Part shown: piece after piece, positions 7,235 to 31,227 of the stretch
Layout of the letters: each line of letters opens with the position of its first letter
How positions within the stretch are numbered: the stretch's first letter is position 1
Assembly: GCA_025358725.1 (NCBI GenBank)
Contig: JANYIT010000178.1
Span: 1-49,870 of the forward strand
Direction of reading: 5' to 3'
DNA: 49,870 nucleotides
Origin: Chamaesiphon sp. GL140_3_metabinner_129_sub
GTDB taxonomy: Bacteria > Cyanobacteriota > Cyanobacteriia > Cyanobacteriales > Chamaesiphonaceae
Notes under the pieces: generated by a model
What the model was told of the DNA's origin: nothing
The model's database searches: none
Seen by the model: the letters and a program-made list of their open reading frames with translations, nothing else
Program-made: the position numbers and the translations under genes

Positions 7235-10200
7235 ATGAATACTGCAACTAAAAAGTGGCAATTTTGGATAGACAGAGGTGGCACATTTACCGATATCGTT
7301 GCCCAGCGTCCCGATGGTAAATTGTTAGTGCATAAATTGTTATCCGTCAATCCCGATCGATATGCAGATGCGCCGATTCAAGGAATTCGGGAGATCTTGG
7401 GATTGACTGCGGCGGAGCCGATTCCGGTCGAGGCGATCGAAGTAGTCAAAATGGGAACTACAGTGGCAACCAATGCGCTATTAGAACGCCAAGGCGATCG
7501 CACCCTGTTACTAATCACCAAAGGATTTGGTGACGCATTGCGAATTGGCTATCAAAACCGTCCCCAGATCTTTGCGCGGGAGATTATTCTACCAGAGATG
7601 CTCTACGAGCGGGTAATCGAAGTCAAAGAACGCTACAGCGCACAGGGTGAGGAATTATTGCGGATCGTTCTAGCAGAAGAAATGCGCTTAACCCAAGCGT
7701 TGCAAACTGCTTATGATGACGGCATCCGTGCCTGTGCGATCGTCTTTCTCCACGGTTATCGCTATCCTGCTCACGAACGGCAAGTAGCCGAGATCGCCCA
7801 TCGAATTGGATTTACCCAAGTCTCGGTATCCCATGAAATTAGCCCCTTGATGAAGTTGGTTAGTCGGGGCGATACCACTGTTGTCGATGCTTATTTATCG
7901 CCGATTCTGCGCCGTTATGTCGAGCGAGTGGCTACTCAACTTACGAATACCAAGTTAGAATTCATGAAATCCGATGGCGGACTGACCGACGCGCGGCTAT
8001 TTCAAGGTAAGGATAGCATTCTCTCTGGCCCTGCTGGGGGCATTGTCGGCGCAGTCAAGACCAGTATCGCTGCTGGCTATGACAAAATTATCGGCTTCGA
8101 TATGGGCGGCACCTCCACCGATGTATCGCACTTTAATGGTGACTACGAGCGGACATTGGAAACTGAAGTTGCGGGTGTCCGGCTGCGAGCACCGATGATG
8201 GCAATTCACACTATTGCCGCTGGTGGTGGATCGATCTTGCAATTTGATGGCTCGCGGTACCGCGTCGGGCCGCAATCGGCGGGGGCGCATCCAGGGCCAG
8301 CCTGTTATCGCAATGGTGGTGCGTTGACTGTGACTGATTGTAATGTATTAATTGGCAAAATTCAACCGGATTACTTTCCGCAGGTGTTTGGCTCTGAGGG
8401 GAATTTACCGCTGGACGGATCGATCGTCCGATCGAAATTTGCTGAGTTAACCACTGAGATTAACGCCCAAACAGGGGCTAATCGTACCCCAGAACAAGTA
8501 GCAGCCGGATTTCTGGAGATCGGGATCGATAAAATGGCTAAAGCGATCGCTAAGATCTCGGTACAGCGGGGCTATGATGTCAGTGAGTATACGCTCTGTT
8601 GCTTTGGTGGAGCTGGCGGACAACACGCTTGCCTGATTGCCGAAGCTTTGGGGATGAGCCAAATTTTTATCCATCCGCTGGCGGGGGTGTTATCGGCTTA
8701 TGGCATCGGTGCCGCCGATTTACGCATTTTGAAAGATCGTGCTGTCGAACTGCCGCTCACTGACGATCTACACCCCGATCTGAGCCAAATTTTCGAGGCT
8801 TTGGCGATCGATTGTCGGGCACAAATCGTAGCCCAAGGAACGAGCGCAGATCGAATTCAGATTCTATCCAAAGTTCATCTCCGTTACGAGGGGACTGATT
8901 CGACCTTGACGATCGAATTTGGCACTGTGGCAGAGATGCGATCTCGATTTGAGATCGCTTATCAGCAGCGATACAGTTTCACGATGGCAGATAAAACTCT
9001 GATTGTCGAAGCGGTTTCTGTCGAAGCGATCGGGATGACAGAGCCAATCGTTGAGCCATTATTACCTCAAACCAGGACTACTCCCTGTTTGCCGATCGAC
9101 ACTACCCAGATCTACACCAAAGGTAACTGGCATCGCACCCCGATCTATCGTCGCGAAGATCTTCAACCTGGAGACAAAATTAGCGGTGTGGCTCTAATTA
9201 TCGAACCGACTGGGACTAATGCGATCGAACCTGGTTGGAGTGCGGAACTAACCGATCGCAATGCCCTGATGTTACGCAAAGACGAGCGACAGGAAATTCT
9301 TGCTTCAGTCAGCGGGACAGAATCGCAACCCATTGCTAAACCCGATCCCGTGTTACTGGAAATCTTTAATAATTTGCTAAGAGCGATTGCTGAAGAGATG
9401 GGGATCGTTCTCCAAAACACCAGCTATTCGGTGAATATTAAAGAACGGTTAGATTTCTCTTGTGCGATTTTCGATCGAACCGGACAACTGATTACGAATG
9501 CGCCGCATATTCCCGTCCATCTGGGGTCGATGAGTGAGAGTGTGACTAGTTTGATTCGCGCCAAGGGCGAGGCGATCGTGCCTGGTAATGTTTATATCTC
9601 CAATAATCCTTATAACGGCGGTACCCATTTACCAGATATTACGGCAATCTCGCCAATTTTTATCGATGGGTCGATCGCACCTGAATTCTATGTCGCTTCG
9701 CGGGGGCATCATGCCGATATTGGTGGCATTACCCCAGGCTCGATGCCACCCCATAGTACGCGGATCGATGAAGAAGGGATTTTGATCGATAATTTTCTCT
9801 TGGTAGAGCGCGGGCGGTTCCGCGAGTCAGAACTGCTGGAAATGCTTGAGGCTGGCGATTATTCCGTTCGCAATTTCAATCAGAATTTAGCCGATCTCCA
9901 GGCTCAAATTGCCGCTAACGAGCGCGGCGTACAAGAACTAGTTCGGACGGTCGAAGATTATGGATTAGCACGAGTTCGGGCATATATGCAGCACGTTCGC
10001 GACAATGCCGAGGAGTCAGTGCGCCGAGCGATCGATGTCCTACAAGATGGCAGCTTTACCTATCCGATGGATGACGGCACGGAGATTCGTGTCAAAGTGA
10101 CGATCGATCGCGATACTCGTTCTGCTTGCATCGATTTTACGGGCACATCCCCCCAACAAGCGACTAACTTAAATGCCCCCCTAGCGATCTGTAAATCTGT

Positions 10201-14800: not shown

Positions 14801-15495
14801 TCTTCAATTTCCTGGTTTGGATGGTCAGATACATCGGTAAGACCCTGGATCAATGGCGATAGATCGTCAGTTAATTTATTAAAGCCATTTAGCTCGATCG
14901 ACCTCCCGATATTAAACGGAGTACGCTGCTTATCTTTAATTAAATCGGTAGGTGCTGCGACTCCTAGTAAAACAAAGGATAACCGCTGATATTTAGCACT
15001 ATTAGCTTGCAGTTCGGCATACTTTCTGATTAGTCCAAAGAAATCATCAGTAAATGTTCCTAAGCTCAGAACTTTATCAATCTCATCAACAAAAATAATA
15101 ATTCTGCCGGAAATGCGATCGAGCACGATTTCATCGATGAATTTGCCTAATCTTTTGACATCAGAGAGGTGGGGATGAGTATGCCAAAAAGTTGCTAATT
15201 CTGGCTCCAACTCAAATTCAGTGGCTAGTTCATCCGCGATCGAATAGTACCATTGCGCCGCACCAATCCCCGCAGATCCAACTCCAGTGAGATCTATATC
15301 GACACAAGCTACACCCTCAGCCACCAATCTTTGAATCGTTCGCAGTTTAAGACTAGATTTCCCCATTTGGCGAGAGGTTAAAATATAACAAAATTCCCCA
15401 GCCTGAAGATATGCCTGCAAGTCTCGATCCGCTTGTCTCACAACGTATGTAGGCGCATTTGCGGGGAGACTACCACCAATTTTATAGGTTGTCAT
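11839..15495 (-). CDS. AAA-like NTPase with WD40 beta-propellers, membrane-anchored
   Basis: A 1218-residue cyanobacterial-type protein. Residues 1-350 form a STAND/AAA_35-like NTPase with Walker A SRQMGKSS (41-48) and Walker B RIIIFVDEID (131-140). A linker is followed by one membrane helix at about 430-450 (ILSILIVIGSILLFTLFW). From about 520 to the end there are many WD40 repeats (IIAAGSDGTINLWD, IATGGDDGTVRLWT, LLAGGDDMMPRVWQ), enough for about two propellers. The first Walker glycine pattern is a known variant in this family. Such proteins are thought to sense ligands or proteins and signal, but the specific role is unknown. No clear Shine-Dalgarno precedes the ATG. Confidence 0.85.
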   Translation of the reverse strand: MTTYKIGGSLPANAPTYVVRQADRDLQAYLQAGEFCYILTSRQMGKSSLKLRTIQRLVAEGVACVDIDLTGVGSAGIGAAQWYYSIADELATEFELEPELATFWHTHPHLSDVKRLGKFIDEIVLDRISGRIIIFVDEIDKVLSLGTFTDDFFGLIRKYAELQANSAKYQRLSFVLLGVAAPTDLIKDKQRTPFNIGRSIELNGFNKLTDDLSPLIQGLTDVSDHPNQEIEEVLNWTGGQPFLTQKLCQLVVEFPAIAISEIVSTKIVENWKDRDNPVHLRTIEARLLANREISSYLLQQYRNIITSESSLGANHSREQQALKLSGLIVERDGKLQVCNQIYTRVFDRGWIDRELANICPYSTALTNWLDNGRPDTLLLRGDALDEAIVWKDFQWQHNQSIGIDGAKFIDVSQATRTDRKLAKIKSRISKLIKILSILIVIGSILLFTLFWFDRSLKISDQINQLDQTSNQIVRQYEFAPIDTLKAAIVNANKSQNIQSSSSSTYTAKLALQKIVDSIQEIDEINTHQEGINAVNFCSNDRIIAAGSDGTINLWDRQKQQEEQIEIVTLKSEIKINSVRQSSSNCEDLFATGSSDGTIALWQWNINQPTKLDRPIAEKTNAHTPNDLDREGGVNNVLLTEDKRYIFSTGKTDGILTKWSIDLQNHQLTQVWSHLAHVNGVMSLNINSQKNLIGTAGKDGTAKIWDLEGNLINTLAGHIGSVNSINFKPMTFQASPLYEIATGGDDGTVRLWTSDGKYLKSINTHIGEVKTVRFSPDGKILATASAKDPTTSNGSSVRIWNLENGKLVTEFKGHQGAIDSMRFNPNFDRKDDNIRQLATSGQQDSMIRIWKIPEIMTSNKHRDNITSVRFDPDNHRYFTTAGDDGKIIWWSHQLGKIPQQQDSIDKKNKDGKAVEFKSIRIAPTSDKTSRLIAAGDTNGMISFLRIKDNKIKEIDSFNTNQAEIQSIDWRYDNKSDRYLLATTGVKGDSVRIWQLEIRDNKLVNRKLIHKQDLEYLNKKYFALSLRFSKDGNNLAVGAEKGRVALIKNVNNLPAEKPVVYKFTVNSERDDSSKVVIGFGEDDRSLTIVSKEGKIWRSNLDGKIIEGPIETYQAGTENIAISGDANIATGGAGAALKIWDLEGHQIADFKGYWGTIRSINFSKDGKYLLAGGDDMMPRVWQIDREIPKLIEQGCDWLKQGYFQSDRSNSSNDKVKTICKM

Positions 15496-15697: not shown

Positions 15698-15886
15698 CTG
15701 AAAGTGTTACCTACTCTAATGTATAGCTTGTAGCCTATTTTCATTTCGCAACACTAACCAAGTAGTGTAAAACTATGAAAATTCTACAATCATAATACGA
15801 CGATCTTTTTCTGAAGAGAGAAGAACTGGATAGTTTTTTAATCAACAACAATTAAGCCAAAACAATCAGGTTGAAAAGAGTGATTG

Positions 15887-15895
15887 TGATATAAT
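15887..15895 (+). promoter_or_regulatory. Extended -10 promoter of the antirepressor gene
   Basis: TG-A-TATAAT is a perfect extended -10 box. No good -35 is correctly spaced (TTGAAA at 15871 is only 13 nt away). Transcription would start near 15902, just ahead of a large hairpin. Confidence 0.55.
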
Positions 15896-15910
15896 AATTG
15901 TATGTTCACG

Positions 15911-15951
15911 ACAGAGCCGAATTCAATCTAGAAGTCTGAATCCGGCTCTGT
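15911..15951 (+). promoter_or_regulatory. 15-bp hairpin at the start of the antirepressor transcript
   Basis: Arms 15911-15925 and 15937-15951 pair at 14 of 15 positions (ACAGAGCCGAATTCA). It lies between the extended -10 box and the ATG at 15974. No U-tract follows, so it is a leader structure, operator or attenuator rather than a simple terminator. Confidence 0.5.
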
Positions 15952-15973
15952 GACTAACCCAGTAAAAGTTAAT

Positions 15974-16849
15974 ATGTCTATCGTACCAGGAATATCAACC
16001 AATTTGGTTTTCGGTTTGTATAAGTCTCAAGAAGAGTTTCCTGTGAATTTCGATATTGCTTGGCAGTGGCTAGGATTTACTCGAAAGGATAACGCTAAAA
16101 GGTCATTGTTGGAATGTGGATTTGAAGAAGACGTAGACCTCCTCATTAAAGAGGAGAGTACGGAGAGCCAGTTTGGAACGCCTGAAGAGCAAATTCAATT
16201 AACAGTTGATTGCTTTAAAATGTGGTCGATGATGGTTGGCACAGAACGAGGTAAGGAAGTTCGTCTATATTTCCTGCAATGCGAGAAACAGTTGAAGAAG
16301 CTGCAATCTAAGCCATTAGCGGATTCGCAAGTGATATCGGAGCTATCGGGTAATATCGATCTAGACAATCTAAGCTTCCGCACACTGTCAAAGCTAGCCG
16401 ATCTCAGCGATTTCCGTCGGAATCCAGAGTTGATGCGTTGGAATAATTTGAAGCTATGCAAAACTTTGGATGGTATCAACCCAGTTTTGATAGAAATGCC
16501 TGAAGATGTCATCAGTTATCTCTATGCCAAATTTTGCATCGAGACTGACTGTTATCAAAAATCGCTTGAATCTAAAAACCCCTTTACTGTCAATTTAGCC
16601 AAGAATGCAATTAAAGAACATCAGAAAATTGTAAACAAGTCCAAGTATATCAATGCGGCGAAGGAGTTTCAGAAGAAAATCGATCTACACCCTTTTATCT
16701 CATTGTCTGAACGAAGGTCTGATCTTTTCATGCGATCGATTCAGACTCGACAACGGATCGATCCTCGCCTGCTAGCTGAAGCAAACAAGCTTTTGTCAGA
16801 TTGCTTTGCAAGTTTATCGACTCAACAGCAACTTGGATGTGGCATGTAA
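15974..16849 (+). CDS. AntA/AntB-type phage antirepressor
   Basis: A 291-residue protein (ATG at 15974; an in-frame GTG at 15950 would lie in the leader hairpin). The N-terminal 110 residues match the AntA/AntB or MSV199-like antirepressor domain: FPVNFDIAWQWLGFTRKDNA, GFEEDVDLL and a helix ending RLYFLQCEKQLKK. The C-terminal half is helical and I do not recognise it. Antirepressors of this kind bind and inactivate the prophage repressor to trigger induction. It is the first gene of a rightward module, with its own promoter and a terminator 12 nt after the stop. Confidence 0.75.
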   Translation: MSIVPGISTNLVFGLYKSQEEFPVNFDIAWQWLGFTRKDNAKRSLLECGFEEDVDLLIKEESTESQFGTPEEQIQLTVDCFKMWSMMVGTERGKEVRLYFLQCEKQLKKLQSKPLADSQVISELSGNIDLDNLSFRTLSKLADLSDFRRNPELMRWNNLKLCKTLDGINPVLIEMPEDVISYLYAKFCIETDCYQKSLESKNPFTVNLAKNAIKEHQKIVNKSKYINAAKEFQKKIDLHPFISLSERRSDLFMRSIQTRQRIDPRLLAEANKLLSDCFASLSTQQQLGCGM

Positions 16850-17086: not shown

Positions 17087-17418
17087 AATACCACTTAACC
17101 GGAAAAATCACACCCAAAGCGCGTCCACGACTGAGCAAGGGACACGCCTATCTTCCCTTTAAATACTGCAACTGGAAAGAATCAGCTATCCGCGAACTCC
17201 GCACCCAATCCCCACCCCTGGAACCGATCGAACGCTGCGAAATTTCCATTATCATCGGGGGCAAACAGCGCGGGGATTTGGATAATATCAGCGGTGCTAT
17301 ACTCGATAGCCTGACTCAATCTGGGATAATTAAGGACGATCGATTGTCGGTGGTCTGGCGACTGTCGATCGAGCATCAACCATCTCAGCCACCAGGAGCT
17401 TTAATATCGATCGATTGA
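17083..17418 (+). CDS. rusA: RusA-family Holliday junction resolvase
   Basis: A 111-residue protein matching RusA in length and pattern: KARPRLSKGHAYLPF near the N-terminus, the acidic metal-binding signature GDLDNISGAILDSL and the following GIIKDDRLSV. RusA dimers cut four-way DNA junctions and are common in lambdoid and transposable phages, where they act in recombination or resolve branched DNA before packaging. The start is a TTG overlapping the stop of the upstream small gene (TTGA). It is part of the rightward module at the prophage's left side. Confidence 0.88.
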   Translation: MKYHLTGKITPKARPRLSKGHAYLPFKYCNWKESAIRELRTQSPPLEPIERCEISIIIGGKQRGDLDNISGAILDSLTQSGIIKDDRLSVVWRLSIEHQPSQPPGALISID

Positions 17419-17484
17419 GCAGCTTGCGTAGATCGATCGGCTGAGGCGATACCACAAAAATTTGGTAGAATAGAAATATTAAAA

Positions 17485-17546
17485 CCCAGTCGCGAGTTAG
17501 GTGTAACAAGCACCGAAAGCTCCACTGGGACTAACCTCTAGGAAGG
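17485..17546 (+). ncRNA. Structured leader upstream of an antirepressor-like gene (C4-like candidate)
   Basis: An outer stem CCCAGT/ACTGGG (17485-17490 with 17524-17529) encloses GAG/CTC and GGTG/CACC stems. In the loop, GAGTTAGGT (17494-17502) is complementary, with one bulge, to ACTAACCTC just downstream (17530-17538), beside the Shine-Dalgarno AGGAAGGT. A TAGAAT box precedes it at 17466. The layout recalls the C4 antisense RNAs that lie upstream of phage antirepressor genes. I cannot verify a match to that family. Confidence 0.4.
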
Positions 17547-17551
17547 TCAGC

Positions 17552-18265
17552 ATGAATAACTTAACACGATTTGACAACGATGGTATCGAGATTTTTATCG
17601 ACAATAAAGGCAATAGCTTTGCATCATTAAGCGGTGTTGCTAGAATGACTGAGAAAGCACCAACGACAATTAAGCGTTTAGCTGCGTTGCGTAATTTCGA
17701 GTTACACGAAGCTCAAATCGATACAGCGACTGGCAAAAAAACCGTTACACTTTTTGACGAAGATCAAATACTTGTAGTACTCAAAAAATATAATCCTGAT
17801 CGTCTAATGCAGTTTGCCAAGCTTGGCATTCGGACTGCACTGCATCAAATTGCAGGTTTTGAGCAAAAGCCGATTTCAGTACAGCTAAGTCTAGAACCGC
17901 TAGATATCTATAATCTTGATGCTTGGACAATCTGGCTGCTGATATCTGAAATATATTGGCGAGTAACTCCCGACAAGGTTGATTTTGATCGCTTTAACGG
18001 TAACGACGGACTAGCAACAAAAGAAGAAGTTGATACTCTGGATCAAAGGTTGAAAAATCTTCCCCCGATGCTGAATCACTACATTTGTGCGCTGTATTCG
18101 ATCAAGGTCAACAGGTGGCCAGACAAAGCACCCAAAGAATTCTATATCAAAAGTGCAATGCAAATGTTAACCAATCCGGTGCTAGTTGAACAAGCCCAAA
18201 AATTCCAGTCCCAACTCGATCGAACCCAACTACCAGCAGCACCAACCCAGAAGCAACTAGCCTAG
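17552..18265 (+). CDS. Phage regulatory/antirepressor-like protein
   Basis: A 237-residue protein with a Shine-Dalgarno AGGAAGGT 4 nt before the ATG. The N-terminus (NSFASLSGVARMTEKAPTTI) contains an S-x-SG-V-A-RM motif seen in cyanobacterial phage regulators, where it reads like a DNA-binding helix-turn-helix. The GIY-YIG protein at 36888-37544 shares a similar segment (SRRGLARMCGI). The middle and C-terminus are helical and end in a glutamine/alanine-rich tail. I infer a regulatory role from the motif, the structured leader and the neighbouring antirepressor. The exact family is not certain. Confidence 0.55.
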   Translation: MNNLTRFDNDGIEIFIDNKGNSFASLSGVARMTEKAPTTIKRLAALRNFELHEAQIDTATGKKTVTLFDEDQILVVLKKYNPDRLMQFAKLGIRTALHQIAGFEQKPISVQLSLEPLDIYNLDAWTIWLLISEIYWRVTPDKVDFDRFNGNDGLATKEEVDTLDQRLKNLPPMLNHYICALYSIKVNRWPDKAPKEFYIKSAMQMLTNPVLVEQAQKFQSQLDRTQLPAAPTQKQLA

Positions 18266-29375: not shown

Positions 29376-29425
29376 TGAACTACCCGCCCTCAACTGGAGT
29401 ACCAGTATGAGGGGGGCTTCCAAGT
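29376..29425 (-). ncRNA. Predicted omega-RNA end of the first TnpB element
   Basis: By analogy with IS200/IS605 elements, the TnpB guide RNA scaffold overlaps the 3' end of tnpB and the right end. The sequence ends GGGTAGTTCA, as in the second copy. The guide would be the flank CTGCAAAGAGAACTCG. The stem (CCCTCA/TGAGGG) is weaker than in copy two. Confidence 0.4.
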
Positions 29426-30606
29426 TCAAGGGCAACAGCCTCCACAGCAGTAGACTTACGCCCATACTGTTTTGGTCTTACATTGCCTCCCTTGGCAGTA
29501 ACGCTGGTTCCCAACGTCAATAACCGTAAGCCTTCATCTCTGATGTTGATAGCTGCATTGATGTCTCGGTCGTGTCGCTTCCCGCAGTGGGGGCAATCAA
29601 ATTCACGCACCGATAGATCCATCTTTGGCAACGACAGTAATGTATTAGAACACAAATGAGATGACGGAAAGAATCGACCTACTTCTAGATAGACTTTGCC
29701 TTCTGTTTCTGCTTTGTATTTGAGCATAGTGCAGAACATTCCCCAGCCAGCATCACTGATGGACTTAGCCAAACAATGATTTTTCACCATGTTCTTTACT
29801 GCCAGATTCTCGACCACAATAACTTGGTTTTCGTTAACTATCTTACGGGATAGTTTGTGTCGAAAATCTTCACGTACCCTAGCTATTCTTGCATGGACTC
29901 TGGCTACAGCTAGTTTAGCCTTACGTCGTCTGTTAGTAGTTTTATCCTTTTTTCTAGATAACTTACGCTGCTTACGTTTGAGATTGCGCTCATGCTTCTT
30001 GAGGTGTCGAGGGTTCTGGTATTTAGATCCATCCGATGTAACTACAAAATCAAGTAAGCCAAGGTCAATGCCAATGGCTTTTCCATCTTCGTTACTGGCT
30101 GGATTTTCGCTCCCATCATCCATCAATAGCGAGGCATAATAACGACCATCAGGCATTCTAGATACCGTCACAGTCCTTAATATACCCGCGCAATCACGAT
30201 GAATTTTAGCCTTAACAATTCCAAGATTACCAGGGAATTTAATTTCAGCATTGCTCAGAATTTTAACGTTCTGAGGATACTGCATCGATTGTCTGCCCTG
30301 ACGTTTTTTAAAGGTTGGATACCCTGTTCTGCCATCAAAGAAGTTGATAAACGCTTGAGACAGATTCAGCACGGACGATTGGAGACATTGCGAGTAACAC
30401 TGTTTGAGCCATTCATACTCAGTTTTCCATACTGGAATCTGTTTCTTCATCGTGAAGGCAGAGATACCTTTCCCAGTCTCTTTGTAGGTCTGGGACATCG
30501 TAGCCAGAGATTGATTCCAAACAAAGCGAACACAGCCAAAGGCTTGCGCCAAATGACTTTGTTGCTCAGTGCTTGGATAGATTCTGACTTTGACCGCCTT
30601 CAACAC
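29380..30606 (-). CDS. tnpB: TnpB RNA-guided nuclease, zinc ribbon degenerate
   Basis: About 408 residues from a GTG at 30606 (an ATG at 30636 is possible). It has the TnpB order: KVRIYPSTEQQ, GRQSMQYPQN, RuvC-I aspartate in GIDLGLLDFVV, the basic bridge KKHERNLKRKQRKLSRKK, RuvC-II glutamate in VIVVENLAVKNM and RuvC-III aspartate in HDRDINAAINI. The zinc ribbon should be CxxC...CxxC but reads CSNT...CPHC, so one cysteine is lost. TnpB cuts DNA guided by omega-RNA and promotes element retention. The stop lies in the right-end hairpin. Confidence 0.85.
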   Translation of the reverse strand: MLKAVKVRIYPSTEQQSHLAQAFGCVRFVWNQSLATMSQTYKETGKGISAFTMKKQIPVWKTEYEWLKQCYSQCLQSSVLNLSQAFINFFDGRTGYPTFKKRQGRQSMQYPQNVKILSNAEIKFPGNLGIVKAKIHRDCAGILRTVTVSRMPDGRYYASLLMDDGSENPASNEDGKAIGIDLGLLDFVVTSDGSKYQNPRHLKKHERNLKRKQRKLSRKKDKTTNRRRKAKLAVARVHARIARVREDFRHKLSRKIVNENQVIVVENLAVKNMVKNHCLAKSISDAGWGMFCTMLKYKAETEGKVYLEVGRFFPSSHLCSNTLLSLPKMDLSVREFDCPHCGKRHDRDINAAINIRDEGLRLLTLGTSVTAKGGNVRPKQYGRKSTAVEAVALELGSPPHTGTPVEGG

Positions 30607-31227
30607 AATGTTATTTATCGCAGTTACTAGAACCATGATAATACAAAATAAGCCAATGGACAATCATGGGATTTGTTCGGCTCGTCATCCACCCGCTCAT
30701 CGCCCACTTGCTAATGCTACGTGCCTTGTGAGCGGGTGGAATCCTCATCTCACGCGCCTTTCATCCCACACCAAGCGGGTACGCTATGGTGTGGGGATTC
30801 CCGTCTGTCTAGCTAAATAGCAAGCATGTCGAGATAGGCGATAGTCTTCTGAATTACGCCCGTCTGTATTTCGCAGTATCACGCAAAAGTTCTCTGTGAC
30901 TGAGTTTCCTACATTTTCGCAAGAACGAATTGCCTTTCGGATCGTTCTGGCGAAATTTTCCCAACGTTGATAGCCTAGCATTGGCATCAGTTCTCGTGCG
31001 AACCAAAATTCCCAACCATTTTCGACTCGACCTATGGAATCGAACGGAGAACTACCGCTTTGAGCGGCTAAAGTGATATTATTCAAAATGTGAATCCTAG
31101 TGTTTTTAGGTTTTACTGCCCCTGGAGATCGAGTGTTGTTCGCACTCACTCGCGAGGGGCTTATTACATTATGAGTCGATTTAATTTTTCTGAATGTTAA
31201 ATTATATTGCTAACAATGCCGTCTGAG

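Follow-up and report, generated by a model that had tools for sequence, protein, structure and literature searches.

A candidate Sar-like antisense RNA gene before antirepressor-type genes in cyanobacterial prophages and plasmids

In a few enterobacterial phages, an antirepressor is known to be under the control of an antisense RNA, Sar or C4. The annotation of phage P22 places sar on the minus strand at 15021-15090, so that its 5' end is the base just before the ant ATG at 15091; the sar promoter (15097-15125) lies inside ant and has TATACT as its -10 hexamer. The RNA is 70 nt long and folds into two hairpins. C4 of phages P1 and P7 (RF01695) also places antirepressor genes under RNA control, but it is cut from the sense transcript, forms a three-way junction and uses separate a and b target sites. 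The aba element of BstA loci, finally, covers 29 bp of upstream sequence plus 34 bp of its gene and is reported to act as DNA (PMC8585504).

Here we describe an element in the leader of a regulator gene on a Chamaesiphon contig (Table 1); by the window we mean the whole stretch of DNA that was analysed, 49,870 nucleotides long. We consider it probable that this element encodes an antisense RNA in cis, ~70 nt long, that belongs to a new Sar-like family repressing antirepressors in prophages and plasmids of cyanobacteria. Homology, covariation, position, hexamer spacing, the asymmetry of folding between the strands and a T-run all support such an antisense gene.

Table 1. Coordinates of the element, its parts and its neighbours in the window
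Feature	Position	Strand	Evidence or detail
Whole element, the 5' leader of the sense mRNA (P1, P2, P3, one A, P4, start codon)	17476-17554	+	Covariance models R1, 99.9 bits, and R2, 92.9 bits
Sense stem P1 (CCCAGT/ACTGGG)	17485-17490/17524-17529	+	
Sense stem P2	G17492 and 17494-17496, paired with 17520-17523	+	
Sense stem P3 (GGTG/CACC)	17500-17503/17511-17514	+	
Sense stem P4 (CTAACCT, conserved partner AGGTCAG)	17531-17537/17544-17550	+	Hairpin over the Shine-Dalgarno region
Predicted antisense sRNA, ~70 nt	17480-17550	-	R3, 88.4 bits on the minus strand; fold; geometry. Predicted to begin at 17550, 1 nt upstream of the start codon, and to end within the T-run 17484-17481
Antisense hairpin I (CUGACCU/AGGUUAG), equivalent to sense P4 or RBS hairpin	17531-17550	-	98.4% of stem I cells paired; two-sided changes in 5/7 pairs
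Antisense hairpin II with conserved bulges, equivalent to sense P1-P2-P3	17485-17529	-	Cells paired: P1-P2 96.1%, P3 87.5%; two-sided changes in 11/14 pairs
T-run past hairpin II (AAAA on the + strand), resembling an intrinsic terminator for the antisense RNA	17481-17484	-	T-run count across elements
Candidate antisense -10, TAAGTT (3/6), with TG 1 nt upstream	17558-17563	-	Hexamer scan; in codons 3-4 of the regulator gene, 7 nt from the RNA 5' end
Candidate sense-promoter -10, TAGAAT	17466-17471	+	Hexamer scan; predicted transcription start no more than a few nt from P1
Regulator gene under the element, 237 aa	17552-18265	+	
Second copy of the element	31087-31169	-	R2, 57.0 bits; R3, 63.8 bits; sense leader on -, predicted antisense RNA 31090-31169 on +
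Bro-N/DinD-type gene behind the second copy, TTG start, interrupted/truncated	30784-31086	-	
Leader of the neighbouring Ant-type gene	15896-15973	+	Promoter DNA in common with element-bearing genes, hairpin different

The element and its conserved fold

Copies of the element were found with three covariance models (R1, R2 and R3). In the window, 17480-17556 folds at -25.1 kcal/mol (z -3.4), a value matched by none of 200 shuffles. Across the family the architecture is one unbranched bulged hairpin followed by a separate hairpin with no three-way junction, and the hallmark of C4, a long P1 closing the junction of two hairpins, is absent. For the fold test, 18 antisense-strand sequences were aligned without structure: 95.2% of the cells pair and 16 of the 21 pairs show two-sided changes, giving a covariation score of 0.439 versus 0.138 when shuffled (0 of 500 shuffles reach it) and no higher than 0.11 when slid. 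Alignment of the sense strand leads to the same conclusion.

The initial annotation had described nested stems enclosing a GAGTTAGGT loop. The stems stand, with a fold that beats its shuffles and covariation far above the controls, but GAGTTAGGT is not a loop, its GAG lying in P2 and its GGT in P3. The pairing that had been proposed between GAGTTAGGT and ACTAACCTC fell away: it comes to only GUUAG:CUAAC (5 bp), and over 19 copies the mean duplex energy is -3.07 kcal/mol for own and -3.18 kcal/mol for swapped partners. A pseudoknot or switch between loop and Shine-Dalgarno sequence was rejected because the pairing is not conserved among copies, as was pairing of the apical loop with the tail (own -2.33 versus swapped -2.22 kcal/mol).

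Pfam gives nothing above cut-off for the 237-aa regulator; the model of its N terminus bears only a weak resemblance to the Mbp1 (APSES/KilA-N-type) DNA-binding domain, and a relative is present in Anabaena phage A-4L. The interrupted gene behind the second copy has an intact orthologue in a sister genome (G003, L038), and a TnpB-like ORF (29380-30663, minus strand) comes directly after the truncated form. Upstream, promoter DNA of the neighbouring Ant-type gene (15860-15974) is 88-92% identical over 37-47 bp to that of element-bearing genes in two sister genomes (G002 and G003). Models R1-R3 find no match in the leader of this Ant-type gene, which is possibly a divergent relative of the element; the true start of the gene is probably ATG 15974 rather than GTG 15950.

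Strand asymmetry and candidate transcription signals

The two strands of the element are not equivalent as RNA. The sense RBS stem carries an invariant A.C mismatch, where the antisense stem has an invariant G.U pair instead (18/18). Mean folding energy is -27.0 kcal/mol for the whole antisense RNA versus -22.4 kcal/mol for the sense RNA, and -6.5 versus -2.4 kcal/mol for hairpin I, in which the antisense strand folds better in all 18 sequences; for the window copy alone, the strands are equal in folding (-24.4 vs -24.5).

In 15 of 18 elements, an antisense -10-like hexamer (at least 5/6 positions) precedes hairpin I by 6-7 nt; the spacing is exactly 7 nt in 12 of them, and nearly all other spacings yield none. 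With later elements included and 5-8 nt allowed, such a hexamer is present in 18 of 22 elements, which represent 11 of the 12 lineages; members of one lineage are not independent of each other, which makes P values rough. In two of the later elements, those of PaV-LD and the Xenococcus KilA-N leader, the hexamer is TAAAAT at exactly 7 nt. The hexamer appears at 7.2% of 223 control gene starts, in 9% of composition-matched shuffles and at 0 of 22 antirepressor-type (KilA-N/AntA) genes that lack the element. Its position shifts relative to the start codon and hardly at all relative to hairpin I. No good antisense -35 was recognised.

On the other side of the element, a script scores a T-run (at least 6/9) after hairpin II in 12 of 18 elements, against a background of 3.6%, and two further elements that it misread as empty have 6 and 7 T there by eye. 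Of 19 elements, 18 have a sense -10 hexamer (at least 5/6) shortly before P1, versus 21% in the background, so the predicted antisense RNA would cover the entire mRNA leader.

The window copy at 17476 and its orthologue (G003a) have the weakest antisense -10 of the family, helped in the window copy only by the extended TGn of TGT-TAAGTT; the second copy in the window has TATTAT (5/6) at a spacing of 7 nt. The 17476 copy may therefore be less expressed, or controlled in trans by siblings such as the 89% identical copy on contig C267. A consensus terminator scan makes no call at 17484 because the stem is bulged and the loop long.

These signals also bear on the strongest alternative, in which the functional RNA would be the sense leader itself, its 5'-terminal bulged hairpin and RBS hairpin serving as a cis-acting translational operator for a protein or ligand. 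The stems do covary, P4 covers the Shine-Dalgarno sequence and, given the sense -10 just upstream in 18 of 19 elements, the hairpins would begin at the 5' end of the mRNA. Against this, sense P4 is weak, at -2.4 kcal/mol, with an invariant mismatch that pairs on the opposite strand, and an operator leaves both the antisense -10 at its fixed spacing and the T-run unexplained. No common candidate regulator gene was found near the elements: a common trans-acting protein encoded nearby was rejected, since beyond the antirepressors the loci share nothing but ordinary genes of phages or plasmids. We consider such an operator unlikely and favor the antisense RNA. A stand-alone small RNA using sense P4 as its terminator was rejected as well, since the two copies in which a U-run comes after P4, G045 and G003:C85:45122, look like remnants whose gene has apparently been lost.

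Relatives and the genes they precede

Searching the genome of the window at the DNA level turned up two further copies on another contig, at 89% and 73% identity, which precede different genes (KilA-N and Bro-N). The element occurs in 11 cyanobacterial genomes, comprising the window's own, sister Chamaesiphon genomes and eight more; the carriers include Xenococcus PCC 7305 and plasmid NC_019727 of Calothrix PCC 6303, where the element occupies 7260-7337. It is also present on one IMG/VR contig and in the isolated Planktothrix phage PaV-LD. An order-level sample contained it in 9 of 389 genomes with R2 and in 11 of 291 with R3. Pattern matches outside cyanobacteria (IMG/VR, GTDB) were set aside as chance, scoring at most 17.1 bits, and the isolated cyanophages A-4L, A-HIS1, CL131, Nodularia kac68v161 and Nostoc A1 have no element near the gene examined. 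Among 30 KilA-N/AntA loci taken blindly, the model finds the element in 3 and a fourth (L132) shows the layout by eye; the element is not obligatory for such loci. No family in Rfam 15 matches it at the gathering threshold, and the copies match no known RNA family. In the literature searched, we found no account of an RNA in antirepressor leaders of cyanobacteria.

Almost every copy ends 0-4 nt upstream of a start codon, directly before an antirepressor-type gene, and the genes are of mutually unrelated families: KilA-N, Bro-N, AntA, Phage_pRha (Rha), DinD-type or unnamed HTH-type phage proteins. Conservation stops at the start codon, and coding starts differ across families. The suggestion in the initial annotation of an RNA layer over an antirepressor network thus gains ground, as the element recurs before many antirepressor-type genes and does so twice in the window.

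The same distribution speaks to a second alternative, that the element acts as DNA in the manner of aba, the short sequence at the start of a KilA-N gene that gives the BstA abortive-infection locus its self-immunity. Several downstream proteins do match the BstA PHROG. However, a single structure here serves unrelated proteins, its conservation ends where the coding region begins, and compensatory changes preserve pairing rather than sequence; we give this reading very little weight beside the antisense RNA.

Several of the loci have features of their own. The downstream proteins at L206 299-1027, L018 and L031 match phrog_6287, the BstA abortive-infection PHROG, in part, so some such 'antirepressors' may be defence proteins. 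The PaV-LD antirepressor (ORF099R/100R, L216 1195-1989) is annotated as two ORFs with a stop codon between them. On two plasmids (Calothrix PCC 6303 NC_019727, L117 5199-8369; and G521, L116 2749-4545), the element comes after parA and either parB or a ribbon-helix-helix-like gene, and the KilA-N protein encoded behind it is fused to a C-terminal domain that the upstream partition gene has as well. At G068:C1:80184 (L228), it stands before a large gene that by eye only resembles a replication protein rather than an antirepressor, and copy-number-type control is possible there.

One copy (G002:C62, L022 450-527) is a chimaera of two element types, in which the 5' arm CCTTAT meets the 3' arm ACTGGG; with these mismatched arms, P1 is broken. 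From its sequence, this chimaera looks like the product of recombination between the two types. Together with the occurrence of promoter and element before unrelated N-terminal domains and with the Ant-type leader that has another hairpin, it indicates recombination within the leader, which would bring regulators under existing control.

Proposed mechanism and comparison with known systems

In the mechanism that we propose, an antisense promoter on the minus strand, within the first codons of the antirepressor-type gene, would start transcription 0-4 nt before the start codon and direct it away from the gene. The transcript would pass hairpin I, over the Shine-Dalgarno sequence, and then the bulged hairpin II, and would end at the T-run, just short of the start of the sense mRNA. 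An RNA with this span would therefore be complementary to nearly the whole 5' leader and the ribosome-binding site of the antirepressor mRNA. On the model of P22 Sar, it would pair with the leader through its hairpin loops and block ribosome binding, keeping the antirepressor off in the lysogen. Where one prophage or genome carries near-identical copies, these could also act on one another, as well as on incoming phages that are related. We infer that the RNA is made and ends at the T-run, that it pairs with the leader and represses translation, and that it acts in trans.

A more tentative extension is that promoter, leader and counter-gene form an interchangeable antisense-RNA cassette, placed before many unrelated regulators of prophages and plasmids. 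Near-identical copies might then silence each other and incoming relatives, making up an RNA-level network of immunity or incompatibility over shuffling antirepressors. This is a possibility to which we give less than even weight. A family with the geometry of Sar that the Sar and C4 models do not match, and that in cyanobacteria precedes five or more kinds of regulator with several copies per genome, suggests a general and modular solution. The RNA is predicted in the culture-collection strains Calothrix PCC 6303 and Xenococcus PCC 7305 and in the isolated cyanophage PaV-LD, where it can be tested, and RNA-based cross-regulation of resident versus incoming cyanophages becomes testable with it.

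A C4-type RNA processed from the sense transcript, as the initial annotation had proposed, shares the setting of antirepressor genes and is otherwise largely refuted, the least probable of the readings: the fold differs and has no three-way junction, loop/Shine-Dalgarno complementarity is not conserved, and RF01695 finds no match in the whole window at the gathering threshold, nor in 17200-17800 or in the relatives at E<=10, where C4 of the control phage P1 scores 68.8 bits. That annotation had staked its proposal on a model match or covariation among homologous leaders; the match to RF01695 is absent, yet the covariation is strong.

The element and aba are both short elements at the translation start of KilA-N-type phage genes. 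They differ in that aba is DNA-based, cognate to one protein, dependent on terminal CCCGCC repeats and overlaps the coding region; on reading the element, we saw no terminal CCCGCC direct repeats. Plasmid countertranscript RNAs such as ctRNA_pGA1 (RF00236) resemble it as two-hairpin antisense RNAs directed against leaders of replication genes, and one element precedes a replication-type gene; models of these RNAs do not match the elements at the gathering threshold.

The closest likeness is to Sar of P22 (RF00262). Both have, in the case of the element as read from its sequence, a ~70-nt antisense RNA over the ribosome-binding site, a 5' end beside the antirepressor start codon and a promoter in the first codons of the gene with its -10 at equal spacing. 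Both also have two hairpins and a terminator, which for the element are predicted from covariation, folding and the T-run. In contrast to Sar, hairpin II of the element is bulged and its hairpins are 1 nt apart (4 in Sar); its sense promoter lies directly at the leader, whereas that of P22 is upstream of arc; and it belongs to prophages and plasmids of cyanobacteria, where there are several copies per genome and the genes behind them are many and unrelated. The RF00262 model finds no match in the window copy or in the loci of seven relatives at E<=10, and P22 itself scores 97.8 bits. Because the geometry of Sar matches but the Rfam models for sar and C4 do not, we propose that the element works like Sar while being filed as neither.
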